Source: Lachnospiraceae bacterium
Lineage (GTDB): Bacteria; Bacillota; Clostridia; Lachnospirales; Lachnospiraceae
Assembly: GCA_021770245.1 (NCBI GenBank)
Contig: JAETRI010000025.1
Span: forward strand, 1-51,370
Direction of reading: 5' to 3'
DNA length: 51,370 bases
The translations under genes and the position numbers were made by a program. The notes below the pieces were generated by a model, which was not told where the DNA came from, did no database searches, and saw only the letters and a list, made by a program, of their open reading frames with translations. Shown here in pieces: positions 29,783-33,480 of the stretch. Every line of letters starts with the position of its first letter. Position 1 is the first letter of the stretch.

Positions 29783-31084
29783 TCACTGAGCCAGCGTATC
29801 CTTGTACTTCACCCGATAAATCCGTCTGAGGGAATCGTTCACCCTGTTCTCGTCGATTCTCCCGTCGCGTACCGCCGCGACCACGCCCTCATAGGCCTGC
29901 ACGAAATCCTCCGGCATCAGAATCATATCCGCTCCCGCCTTCAGCGCCTTGACGGCCGCTTCGTCCGAAGCGTAATAGGACGATATGGCCGCCATATCCA
30001 TAGCGTCCGTAATGACGATTCCGTCATATCCCAGCTGTTCTCTCAGGATCCCCGTGATGATCTCCTCATTTAGGGAAGCAGGAAGGGAATCCCCGCCCGT
30101 AAGGCCCGGCGCGCTGATATGCCCCACCATCACCATATCCGTACCGGCGGCGATTCCCGCCTGAAAGGGAAGAAATTCCGCCGCCTGCATTTCCTCCAGG
30201 GTCCGTCCCGTCTCCACGGCCCCCTCGTGGGAGTCGCCTGTCGTATTGCCGTGACCCGGAAAATGCTTCAGACACGCGCTCACGCCGGTCTCCTGCATGC
30301 CCTCCACCGCGGCCTGCACCATCAGGGAAACACCGGCCGGATCGGAACCGAAGGCACGGTCGCCGATCACCGTATTATCCGGATTCGTCTGCACGTCGGC
30401 CACCGGCGCGAAATCCAGATTGAACCCGTATTCCCTCAGATACGTCCCAATCGTCGTTCCCGCGCTGCGGGCCGCTTCCGCATCCCCGATCGACGCCATA
30501 GGCCCCACGTTCTCAAGCCCCAGCGCATCCGCCACCCGCGCCACCCGGCCGCCTTCCTCGTCCACCGCCAGAAAAAGGGGATACTTGGCATACCCGGCCG
30601 TGTTGCCCAGCATTTCCCCAAGCTGCTGTGCGGACTGAATATTTTTGGAAAAATACACCAGGCCTCCCACCGGATACCTGGCCAGCGCATCCCTCGTACT
30701 GTCTCCGGCCTGCACCGCCGTCCCCACTCCCGTGAGGGCCTCCGGCCGGATAATAAAAAGCCCGGCCACCTTATCCTCCAGGCTCATATCCGCTATTGTA
30801 TTATTCACAAGTTCCTCCAGCAGGGCCTCATCCGACACCTCCGGCGCCGTCTCCTCCGGCGATCCCGCCTCCGGTTCCCCTTCTTCCGGCAGGACTTCGG
30901 CTTCCGTCTCCGCGTTCTCCTGCCTCTCCTCCTGCGCACGCTTCTCCTGCATGGCATTGGAGATATGCCTGATCCCGAAAAAAACACCCACGGCGACGGC
31001 CGCCAGCAGGACGGCAGTAATCACATAGGATATGATCTGATTCCTGATCCTTCTTTTTCTTCTCGCTTCTCTCCGGTTCATCAT
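29783..31084 (-). CDS. Membrane-anchored beta-N-acetylhexosaminidase (GH3, NagZ-like)
   Basis: Hydrolyses beta-N-acetylglucosaminides, typically from peptidoglycan or mucin-like glycans. Residues 1-40 give a basic start and a membrane helix (IISYVITAVLLAAVAVGVFF). An acidic Glu/Pro linker (50-90) follows. The GH3 barrel shows FLAVDEEGGRVAR (about 182), LDFAPVADV, the NagZ loop CLKHFPGHGNTTGDSH (about 260-275, His/Asp dyad) and GIVITDAMDMAAI (nucleophile Asp about 347). GGAGG directly abuts ATG 31084; the next Met codon (31081) is equally possible. It is the first gene of the operon, and the transglutaminase-like gene starts 17 bases after its stop. Confidence 0.92.
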   Translation of the reverse strand: MMNRREARRKRRIRNQIISYVITAVLLAAVAVGVFFGIRHISNAMQEKRAQEERQENAETEAEVLPEEGEPEAGSPEETAPEVSDEALLEELVNNTIADMSLEDKVAGLFIIRPEALTGVGTAVQAGDSTRDALARYPVGGLVYFSKNIQSAQQLGEMLGNTAGYAKYPLFLAVDEEGGRVARVADALGLENVGPMASIGDAEAARSAGTTIGTYLREYGFNLDFAPVADVQTNPDNTVIGDRAFGSDPAGVSLMVQAAVEGMQETGVSACLKHFPGHGNTTGDSHEGAVETGRTLEEMQAAEFLPFQAGIAAGTDMVMVGHISAPGLTGGDSLPASLNEEIITGILREQLGYDGIVITDAMDMAAISSYYASDEAAVKALKAGADMILMPEDFVQAYEGVVAAVRDGRIDENRVNDSLRRIYRVKYKDTLAQ

Positions 31085-31197
31085 CCTCCTGCCTTTCCTG
31101 CAATCTTCCCTTCCCCGCCGGGGTAACAGACAAAACCGTTCCCATACCGATACGGCCCGCCGGCCGAACCGTAATCTAACACTACCACAAACAGAAG

Positions 31198-31700
31198 CGG
31201 GTATCAATCTTTTTCTTGATACCCGCTCCTAAACTATGCTGTCCAATGGCCTTACCTCCATTTTCTCCTCTGCGCCTCTTTCCACTCTTTTGGTTTTCTT
31301 TGTACCAGATGTACTGCAACGGTATCCGCCTTTCGGATGTTCTTCGCTGCTAAAGTAAGTGTACTCGCTTCGCATTCGGTTTTCGCATCGTCCTTAAAGT
31401 ATATCTGAATCGTTCCCTTCGAAGATTCCTGCCGTTTCCTGCCAGATTCCCTCAAATCACCGGTTCTCCTATCCCCCGAAGTCCATCTATATAAATTTGG
31501 AACTTATATTAACGGTTACCGACTTGCTATGGGTAGTTCTCCTGCAATTTCCGGTCCTTCTTGACAGAAATCCCTGTCCTCTTCCGGAACCCTTTAAGGC
31601 TCTCTCTATTCAGTTATCTTCCTTATAAAAAACTTATGCTTTCGGCGGTCCGTACCTCCTTTTCTTAGATTTGGTAGTTCTTCCTGTCTTGCTTGTTTAT
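31198..31700 (-). ncRNA. Candidate large structured non-coding RNA, about 500 nt
   Basis: A perfect consensus promoter (31735-31707) fires into 500 bases with no credible protein frame. Base composition is AT-richer and unlike the flanking genes. Many local stems are visible on the minus strand: GACAG/CTGTC (31577-31562), TTCCGG/CCGGAA around it (31590-31549), CGG/CCG (31520-31512), GAATC/GATTC (31427-31405), ATCCG/CGGAT with a GAAA-containing loop (31338-31324) and GTAC/GTAC (31314-31302). The 3' end is an 11-bp hairpin, GCGGGTATCAA/TTGATACCCGC (31225-31198), followed by UUCUGUUUGU. I recognise no RNase P, tmRNA, SRP, 6S or riboswitch core. Size and setting recall the ornate large RNAs (ROOL, GOLLD, OLE) of Firmicutes, but identity is not established. 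Confidence 0.6.
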
Positions 31701-31706
31701 GGGTTC

Positions 31707-31735
31707 ATTATAGTCCCTGCTTCCGTATCTGTCAA
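31707..31735 (-). promoter_or_regulatory. Perfect sigma-A promoter for the candidate RNA
   Basis: TTGACA (31735-31730), 17 bases, TATAAT (31712-31707). Upstream on the minus strand lie A-tracts (AAAAAAAGTC, AAAAAAC; 31739-31760) like an UP element, suggesting strong, rRNA-like transcription. From 31740 to 31855 the DNA is very AT-rich and holds nothing else recognisable. Confidence 0.88.
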
Positions 31736-31855: not shown

Positions 31856-32113
31856 GGCCTCAGGGCCGTTCATGCGTTTGTCCTGCAACCGGCCCTTGCA
31901 TAATCCGCCGCAAGCCCCCGGCCAAATTTCCCGGTTAAACGCCGTCTTCGCCGTGGAAGCTGCGGAAAACGAAACGACCGCCCACAGCCCGGAAAGCATC
32001 CGGTGCGGACAGCCGTTTCATTTCGCGCCACAGGAAACGAACAGCCCCGCGGCCTCTGCGCGGAGCCGGGCAGGGACGGCGCAGAGGCCGCGGGGCTGTT
32101 CGTTCGTTTGTCC
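31856..32113. repeat. Family D arms and GC-rich hairpin beyond the end of lysC
   Basis: 31856-31891 carries CGGCCTCAGGGCCG and GCGTTTGTCCTG. The main hairpin pairs 32037-32062 with 32080-32105 over 26 bp (AACGAACAGCCCCGCGGCC, TCTGCGC arms). Its loop GGAGCCGGGCAGGGAC is also found in the arm of the large hairpin at 48.7 kb. The rest (31892-32030) holds no gene that I can support. It could end lysC transcription, although no U-run follows. Confidence 0.7.
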
Positions 32114-32147: not shown

Positions 32148-33467
32148 TTAGAGCTGGATCAACACGAAAATATTATAAATCGCCCGTATTGCCGCCTCAA
32201 AATCCTCGTTTCTCACCCCGATGATGATGTTTAATTCACTGGAGCCCTGGTCTATCATTTTCACGTTCACATTGGCATGGGCCAGCGCGGAAAAAATCCG
32301 TCCCGCCGTTCCCCGGGTGGACTTCATCCCGCGCCCCACTACGGCGATCAGCGCCAGATCGGATTCGATGTCAATGGTATCCGGATCGGCCAGGCGGTGG
32401 ATCGCGGACACCACCTTCTGTTCCTTATCCATGAACTCGTCCTGGTGGACGAAAACCGTCAGGGTGTCGATCCCGGAAGGAATGTGTTCAAAGGAAATCC
32501 CGTTGTCCTCGAAGGCCTGGAGCACCTTACGGCCGAACCCGATCTCCGAATTCATCATATCCTTTTCAATATTGATGGAGCAGAATCCCCGCTTCCCCGC
32601 GATGCCGGTGATGACAAACCGGGACTTCTGACAGGTGCTTTCCACAATCCAGGTGCCGTTGTCCTCCGGGGCGTTGGTATTCCGGATGTTGATGGGAATC
32701 CCCTCCTTACGCACGGGAAAAATGGCATCCTCATGGAGCACCGTGGCGCCCATGTAAGAAAGCTCGCGCAGCTCGCGGTAGGTAATCGTGTCTATGCCCA
32801 CCGGATTGGGGATGATGCGGGGATCCGCAATCAGGAAGCCCGATACGTCCGTCCAGTTTTCATATACCTCCGCGTGCACCGCCCGCGCCACGATGGAGCC
32901 TGTGATATCCGAACCGCCTCTGGAAAAGGTGCGGATACGGCCGGAAGCATCCGCACCGTAGAAACCCGGAATCACCGCGTATTCCTCCGCTTCCAGGCGG
33001 GCCGCCATCCTCCGGTTGGTTGCGTCCGCATCGAAGTTCCCCGTCTCGTCGAAGACAATCACCTCCGCCGCGTCGATAAAGGTGCATTTCAGGCAGGCTG
33101 CCATAATGATTCCGTTCAGATACTCTCCCCGGGAAGCCGCGTAATCTTTTCCCGCTCCTTCCCTCAGGCGGCGGTCTATCGTATCGAATTCCCCTTCCAG
33201 GGACAGTTCCAGAGAAAGCCCCCGGATGATTTCCCCGTATCTAAGCCGGATCGCCTCCAGTTCTTCCCCGTAGTCCCCTCCTGCGGCCGCCTTGGCCTGG
33301 CAGGCATACAGCATATCCGTCACCTTGGTATCGTCTTTACTGCGTTTTCCCGGCGCGGAAGGGATCACAAACCTTCTCTCCGGATCCGCCCTGATGATCT
33401 CCACCACCTTCCGGAACTGTTCCGCGCTCGCCAGGGAACTCCCCCCGAATTTGACCACCTTTATCAT
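32148..33467 (-). CDS. lysC: Aspartokinase
   Basis: Phosphorylates aspartate, the first step to lysine, threonine and methionine. The 439 residues begin MIKVVKFGGSSLASAEQF (nucleotide-binding KFGGSS), with IIMAACLKCTFIDAAEVI, TFSRGGSDITGSIVARAV (about 203-220, Asp-binding) and YENWTDVSGF. Two C-terminal ACT domains (about 300-439; GITDLxV-type segments read GIDTLTVFVHQDE and LIAVVGRGMKSTRGTAGRIF) point to feedback control by an amino acid. GAGG precedes the start after repeat F2. Last gene in the order pheB-like, hom, apgM, lysC. Confidence 0.93.
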   Translation of the reverse strand: MIKVVKFGGSSLASAEQFRKVVEIIRADPERRFVIPSAPGKRSKDDTKVTDMLYACQAKAAAGGDYGEELEAIRLRYGEIIRGLSLELSLEGEFDTIDRRLREGAGKDYAASRGEYLNGIIMAACLKCTFIDAAEVIVFDETGNFDADATNRRMAARLEAEEYAVIPGFYGADASGRIRTFSRGGSDITGSIVARAVHAEVYENWTDVSGFLIADPRIIPNPVGIDTITYRELRELSYMGATVLHEDAIFPVRKEGIPINIRNTNAPEDNGTWIVESTCQKSRFVITGIAGKRGFCSINIEKDMMNSEIGFGRKVLQAFEDNGISFEHIPSGIDTLTVFVHQDEFMDKEQKVVSAIHRLADPDTIDIESDLALIAVVGRGMKSTRGTAGRIFSALAHANVNVKMIDQGSSELNIIIGVRNEDFEAAIRAIYNIFVLIQL

Positions 33468-33480
33468 CTCTAACCTCGCA

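Follow-up and report, generated by a model that had tools for sequence, protein, structure and literature searches.

In the window (the whole stretch of 51,370 nucleotides that was analysed), an RNA unit sits between the genes of an aspartokinase and of a GH3-domain protein, the latter presumably nagZ-like, and all three lie on the minus strand (table 1). The original prediction, which did not give the strand, had placed here an AT-richer stretch behind a perfect TTGACA-17-TATAAT promoter, and both observations held: the promoter agrees with the consensus throughout, and the GC content of the RNA stretch is 44%, compared with 55.6% for the window, with only 22 of 1017 windows of 538 nt being equally low. 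The 125 nt upstream of the promoter are poorer still (24% GC). Between 30900 and 32300, two promoter-like sites matched at least 9 of 12 positions, against a shuffle mean of 1.2. Transcription would start near 31700 and end in a hairpin whose foot overlaps the stop codon of a tiny open reading frame (ORF). In an alignment of 78 sequences (A1), the stem of this terminator was kept while its sequence varied (by eye), and the consensus stem comprised 14 pairs. We found no ORF of more than 67 amino acids lying wholly inside the stretch, and the 67-amino-acid frame at 31252-31455 was rejected as a gene (best Pfam match E 0.06, below its cut-off). Directly downstream of the aspartokinase gene, at 32038-32102, we observed a perfect GC-rich inverted repeat with two 24-bp arms (by eye), which is probably the terminator of that gene.

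Table 1. Features of the RNA unit and its two neighbours in the window
Feature	Position	Strand	Details
Aspartokinase, upstream neighbour	32148..33467 (range searched 32148-33479)	minus	PF00696, E 7e-32, and ACT domains; predicted start codon
CodY-type operator AATTGTCTGAAAATT	31843-31829	minus	14/15 to AATTTTCWGAAAATT; centre 101 bp before -35
Sigma-A promoter TTGACA-17-TATAAT	31735-31707	minus	12/12 consensus positions
Predicted transcript, ~510 nt	31184..31700	minus	short form, as in G011
5' element AATCTAAGAAAAGGAGGTACGGACCGCCGAAAGCATAAG, strong Shine-Dalgarno without start codon	31671-31633	minus	logo of 169 loci
3' domain: stem GCAGCG/CGUUGC with inner hairpin AUCCG/CGGAU, then hairpin GUAC/GUAC	31350-31302	minus	consensus fold
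Tiny ORF TTG GAC AGC ATA GTT TAG (M-D-S-I-V)	31246-31229	minus	SD GGAGG at 31259-31255
Terminator hairpin	31231-31192	minus	16 pairs including G-U, weak T tract; 3-nt overlap with ORF stop codon
GH3 N-terminal domain protein, downstream neighbour	29783..31084	minus	PF00933, E 5e-79; predicted start codon

Recurrence in Lachnospiraceae and comparison with catalogued families

The original prediction had considered the RNA either a member of ROOL, GOLLD or OLE or a new class, and had named an Rfam search as its check. With the Rfam 15 covariance models, the whole window gave no match at gathering score, and at E<=10 the RNA region gave three weak matches only, all far under gathering scores. ROOL, GOLLD, OLE, raiA, RNase P, TwoAYGGAY and Clostridiales-1, so far as they are among the 4227 models, did not match at the locus, and no match at gathering score was obtained in 20 of the 80 relatives' loci searched with the same release. 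A further search of 15 loci found no family inside the RNA; a Clostridiales-1 RNA (RF01699, E 3.5e-28) was observed at L016 2195-2361 on the plus strand, immediately before the G015 copy and divergent from it. TwoAYGGAY (RF01731) was rejected, with one match in 12 genomes (77.9 bits, G368:C1:1747049-1747210) away from the RNA locus; at another site, that genome carries five copies of the 5' element in an array. The host gene for 6S RNA lies on another contig (C25), and ARAGORN found no tRNA or tmRNA genes in the window. Membership in the named families thus fell away, and the new class stood: that the RNA constitutes a class of Lachnospiraceae absent from Rfam is well supported.

In the published literature, screened at the level of result listings, we found no description of this RNA, and exact-text searches with five motif forms matched only an unrelated cancer paper. 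A search by terms within PMC11109978 met none of the genus names tried and no CodY. PMC8040213 describes 3161 candidate RNAs of human microbiomes, and a fragment of the RNA may stand among its supplementary candidates.

The promoter, 5' element, fold and terminator all recurred in other Eisenbergiella genomes, the two ends of the RNA recurred in many other Lachnospiraceae genera, and strong matches outside the family were rare. A DNA search matched 21 of 98 genomes including the host, namely 12 of the 13 genomes of the genus Eisenbergiella and nine others, one of which (L020) we took for chance; the genus genome G009 (81% complete) gave no match in this search. With at most two mismatches, a 20-nt pattern taken from the 5' element occurred in 131 of 397 family genomes, and its reversed control was non-zero in 50 genomes (hand count), so that at this looseness roughly 80 family genomes stand above chance. 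The exact pattern occurred in at least 120 stretches of a named genome collection, for which we estimated about two by chance in the whole collection. Among the 80 exact matches listed were one Deltaproteobacterium and one Streptomyces, and the remainder mostly bore Lachnospiraceae-type names, some being named only Clostridiales, Clostridiaceae or bacterium. Blautia massiliensis and Anaerobutyricum hallii were both represented in the records with the exact pattern.

Recurrence of the 3' end was addressed with a covariance model (R1), which was partly built from the 98 relatives, so that those sequences match by construction. At E<=0.001, R1 matched 41 of these 98 (36/60 in the family and 5/38 others), and at E<=1.3e-5 it matched 30/60 and 0/38, respectively. 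In an order-level draw at E<=0.01, 81 of 246 genomes matched, 26 inside and 55 outside the family; the matches in other families were mostly weak (E 1e-4 to 1e-2), and we took those in the 55 genomes for chance terminators. All matches with E<=1e-6 in this draw lay in the family except that in G599, followed outside by G547 (1.3e-5). The strongest outside match, L303 in G599 (2.6e-7), has a MIDEVK ORF at the terminator and hints at a possible wider spread. Within the family, no promoter accompanies the G157 match (E 1.5e-5), which resembles a chance terminator; L020, L311 and L284 were dismissed as chance matches by the look of their surroundings. In the host, the window copy was the sole strong match (E 4e-13; next 0.04).

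For the statistics, 262 loci yielded 185 places in which a promoter lay within 350 nt of the 5' core (at most one mismatch), promoterless places having been excluded beforehand, and 169 remained after removal of near-duplicates; the majority of the loci had been retrieved with the 5' motif, and the conservation of its core is therefore partly due to selection. A promoter check free of promoter selection covered 113 of the 120 loci listed from the named collection, seven lying too near an end. Among these 113, all picked by the 5' motif, 55 promoters were perfect (12/12) and 80 had at most one mismatch, compared with 0.2% and 0.7% in shuffles, and nine loci had none within three mismatches. In a separate set of 80 loci, 45 had a promoter with at most one mismatch and eight had none within three. 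Five loci of genus g241 (L302, L304, L308, L295 and L296) lack the strict 5' element and have a different conserved body, and they keep the promoter, the SD-led tiny ORF (e.g. MEISK) and the terminator.

A phage or plasmid RNA was rejected: the exact 5' motif and one exact 3' motif were both found in 0 viral contigs, no plasmid matched, and the single "phage" match is evidently a bacterial fragment. This scaffold from human faeces (L312; MT837576.1, 1973-6600), labelled "Bacteriophage sp." in GenBank, carries in order an ABC-transporter-like ORF (by eye), a complete copy of the RNA and a gene like the GH3 neighbour; the copy holds the promoter, the start-less SD, an MDSEF ORF and the terminator.

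Fold and conserved ends of the RNA

Including its terminator, the single sequence folded more stably than its shuffles (z = -3.5, 0/100 as stable), and the consensus fold of 12 genus sequences without the terminator was far lower than expected (z = -8.6, 0/60 as low). The covariation check on homologues that the original prediction had proposed gave 101 consensus pairs, of which 16 had both sides changed in at least one of the 12 sequences. Together with the promoter, the terminator and the recurrence in relatives, these folds bear out the predicted discrete structured unit. Considered by part, the 3' domain (z -4.8) folds more significantly than the 5' part (z -2.3, 4/150 shuffles as low), and its pairs were kept through changes, with U-G, U-A and C-G found at one position. 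In the long form, no consensus fold emerged for the middle part (alignment columns 230-500). A middle stretch is absent in the host and in G011 and wholly or partly present in the other ten aligned genus copies, which are longer, at about 650-750 nt. Over 150 loci, the transcript ranged from 152 to 1052 nt with a median of 427, and the RNA body differed strongly between genera in length and sequence. Thus, the earlier description of a large ornate RNA was apt in part only, the common parts being the two ends and not one big fold.

The 5' end holds a strong Shine-Dalgarno sequence without a start codon, as in the STAB-SD elements of Bacilli, near the start of the transcript. Its consensus over 169 loci is AAUYUAAGNAAAGGAGGUACRGACCRCCRAAAACNUAA, of which the core served as the search pattern, so that the flanks alone are free of bias. 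Over 8-10 nt, 132 of the 169 elements matched the complement of the 16S 3' end. The place of the start codon was occupied by CCA, CCG or CCU in 167/169, and nine of 186 copies carried AUG there. The triplet aligned with a stop codon was UAA in 123/169, UAG in 4 and UGA in 1; since UAA dominates over the other stops, this triplet is kept as RNA and not as a stop codon. An outer GG/CC stem was rejected, because C11-C12 stay in the logo although their G partners change. Two to five copies of the element occurred in 20 of 150 RNAs (threshold 12). The array at L142 (G056:C8) mixes start-less elements with AUG versions bearing an ORF of two to three codons (AUG AAA ACA UAA), which suggests that the start-less form was derived from, or was the source of, minimal ORFs.

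The repeats are rich in GGA, with AGGA and ACGGA in the element and arrays of up to five, and the host has CsrA; a CsrB-like sponge for CsrA could be read from these features. The second GGA is not fixed, however, with ACAGA and ACAGU occurring, and 23 of 40 carriers tested, single-contig genomes included, had no CsrA match at E<=0.001 (17/40 matched, 16 of them over the cut-off). As a general role the sponge is thereby largely refuted, and we put its probability close to nil.

At the 3' end, the SD-led tiny ORF of the host starts at UUG, and the corresponding codon is AUG in some relatives, L014 and L017 among them. The ATG at 31261 is in frame and would give MEVRPLDSIV, in a frame common only to the host and G011 among the 12 aligned genus copies. 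With terminators picked independently of ORFs at 165 loci, an ATG with a strong SD and a stop at the stem base was found at 89 (shuffles 2.2, maximum 6); all start types with a strong SD gave 123 (shuffles 6, maximum 11), and a relaxed SD gave 140 (shuffles 18.6, maximum 26). In a set of 150 ORFs, for which the terminator was selected with the ORF in view, the starts were ATG (114), TTG (29) and GTG (7), the stops were TAA (62), TAG (49) and TGA (39), and 84 ORFs had five codons and 40 had six. A few of these (17, 20 and 30 codons) are likely wrong picks and stood outside the codon test, for which a stricter set of 102 ORFs was used.

In this stricter set, GA at codon 2 was followed by C/T (Asp) in 68/73, and at codon 3 GA was followed by A/G (Glu) in 43/44, AG by C/T (Ser) in 19/19 and AA by C/T (Asn) in 15/17; after the same dinucleotides in the RNA body, C/T came next in ~26-30%. 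The choice of the third base thus follows the amino acid, which shows selection on the peptide residues, and the RNA is therefore not simply noncoding, contrary to the original prediction. That the tiny ORF is coding and under amino-acid constraint is well supported by these codon statistics. To our knowledge, it is among the shortest ORFs with conservation at the amino-acid level. The peptides (for example MDSIV, MDEIV, MDNEM, MIEESK and MTEPVK) comprise 35% D/E and 4% K/R (139 ORFs); of the 102, 98 have an acidic residue at positions 2-4, and 46 have two acidic residues adjacent or one apart.

The amino-acid constraint with free third bases and the recurrent early acidic residue would also suit a minimal mRNA, in which a formylated acidic pentapeptide is a signal or ribosome effector and the RNA merely its carrier. 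We consider this very unlikely, as the peptides differ between genera and lack the length needed for an export signal, and this reading offers no account of the conserved fold of the body. A purely structural housekeeping RNA of the ROOL or OLE kind, with the ORF incidental, would account for the strong promoter and the conserved fold; the codon, stop and start statistics and the negative Rfam searches make it highly improbable.

A short ORF beside the terminator, translated to judge by its codons, is also the architecture of a leader peptide, and the unit might attenuate a downstream gene in cis, at the window locus that of the GH3 enzyme on the same strand. A GH3-type gene does follow in the Eisenbergiella copies, in G057 and in MT837576.1 (by Pfam in the window and by likeness of the N-terminus elsewhere). 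Over 150 loci, however, the downstream gene was co-directional in 86, convergent in 57 and unreadable or absent in 7, so that 57 of the 143 loci with a readable neighbour had a convergent gene, and the downstream genes differ. An attenuator of one fixed gene is thus not general, and we regard the cis-acting leader as quite unlikely for the class, although the co-directional genes at 86/150 loci mean that such a role may hold at some of them. The varied neighbours favour action in trans.

A CodY-type box upstream of the promoter

The original prediction had also called the promoter constitutive. Upstream of it we found a box one position short of the CodY-type operator AATTTTCWGAAAATT, and similar boxes recurred in the class. 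In the 155 bp before the -35 element, the best match reached at least 13/15 in 38 of 167 loci (22.8%, compared with 0.9% in shuffles), a ~25-fold enrichment over dinucleotide shuffles. In a slightly wider stretch, at least 12/15 was reached in 84 of the 167 loci, against ~14 of 167 in shuffles, and the other 83 had no such box; by the measure applied to CodY regulons, the host (14/15) and these 84 loci thus carry one. The box centres clustered at ~10, 29, 39, 60, 70, 90, 101, 112 and 122 bp from the -35 element, and the spacing of the 84 sites to the promoter had a period of 10.25 bp (z 51.6), compared with null maxima of 11.7 in 2000 jitters and 6.4 in 100 shuffles. The phase persisted when the nine position clusters of at least three sites were taken as units (R 0.954, 0/5000 in the null) and was weaker when clusters of two sites were included (R 0.771, 56/5000).

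A single helical phase points to a protein acting from one face of the DNA on the polymerase or on another bound protein, and a phased upstream box as a feature of the class is well supported by the positions of the sites. CodY is a fitting candidate for this protein; its gene was encoded in all 40 carrier genomes tested (carriers only). Perfect promoters need no activator, and control through the box may be positive or negative. The promoter is strong as predicted, and with a phased CodY-type box upstream the RNA may not be constitutive.

Regulatory RNAs that act by base pairing usually carry a C-rich anti-SD motif. A trans-acting RNA of this type, such as RNAIII or SR1, with the tiny ORF as an accessory, would agree with the free-standing unit and its variable neighbours; the motif shared here is SD-like instead, and both the length and the sequence of the body differ greatly from genus to genus. 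We therefore hold base pairing in trans to be unlikely, even given the parallel between the putative CodY-type control here and that described for BsrF of B. subtilis (PMC3574147).

Proposed mechanism and related systems

Taken together, we propose a free-standing RNA under the control of CodY, both ends of which engage ribosomes and in which translation of the tiny ORF acts on its own 3' hairpin, a reading that we consider evenly balanced between right and wrong. For the class, we infer the following course. The consensus promoter would make a free-standing transcript, and CodY, sitting upstream on a constant face of the DNA, would modulate the activity of this promoter. The start-less SD would bind the 3' end of 16S rRNA, may park 30S subunits and, like STAB-SD in Bacilli, should protect the transcript against 5' decay. 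At the opposite end of the RNA, ribosomes would synthesise an acidic peptide some five residues long. Because the ORF stop overlaps the terminator foot, a ribosome at this stop would have to cover the terminator base, and translation should affect termination or the stability of the 3' end. The RNA would thus couple the nutrient state (branched-chain amino acids and GTP, through CodY) to the translation status, and would act on its presumed final target in trans or via the small peptide.

A more specific and more tentative version, which we think possible and rather doubtful, is a ribosome-sensing RNA: the 5' start-less SDs would hold small subunits, the pentapeptide ORF would test the state of the ribosome, the outcome would set the lifetime of the RNA and CodY would set its synthesis. 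The early acidic residues of the pentapeptide resemble ribosome-destabilising sequences. According to the MgtL study, acidic residues near the start of a peptide can make ribosomes pause or come off, and acidic residues alone are insufficient for destabilisation (PMC11282234).

If the proposed mechanism is true, one RNA ties nutrient sensing to ribosome status; if the ribosome-sensing version is true, a single molecule informs on both nutrients and the capacity for translation throughout a family dominant in the gut. Lachnospiraceae rank with the most abundant bacteria of the gut, and many of their genera carry the RNA, which has no name in Rfam and whose ORF is smaller than ordinary annotation considers. 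The helically phased CodY-type box offers a direct experimental handle, and some carriers are named strains.

ROOL, GOLLD, OLE and raiA are likewise long structured RNAs in Firmicutes, and they differ from this RNA in that their covariance models do not match it. With dual-function RNAs (RNAIII, SR1 and SgrS) it shares a structured RNA with a small ORF, the coding of which is indicated here by the codon statistics, whereas this ORF is far shorter and fused to the terminator, and no pairing target is known. We know of neither a start-less SD nor a tiny ORF at the terminator in BsrF/SR2 of Bacillus subtilis. That small RNA is activated by CodY, and so resembles the present one in the putative CodY control of a free-standing RNA, and it is 93 nt long (PMC3574147); the comparison here is one of descriptions. 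In Bacilli, transcripts are stabilised by a strong SD that lies close to the 5' end and lacks a start codon (cry and ermC leaders; PMC3997798). Those STAB-SD elements lie in leaders of long mRNAs, whereas the element described here continues into the conserved UACRGACCRCC...UAA and can occur in arrays. Leader-peptide attenuators and MgtL, the latter with intrinsic ribosome destabilisation and EttA, likewise tie a short acidic ORF to the fate of the transcript 3' end (PMC11282234); in contrast, the RNA of Lachnospiraceae has no fixed downstream gene, an intrinsic and not a Rho terminator, and mostly five to six codons.
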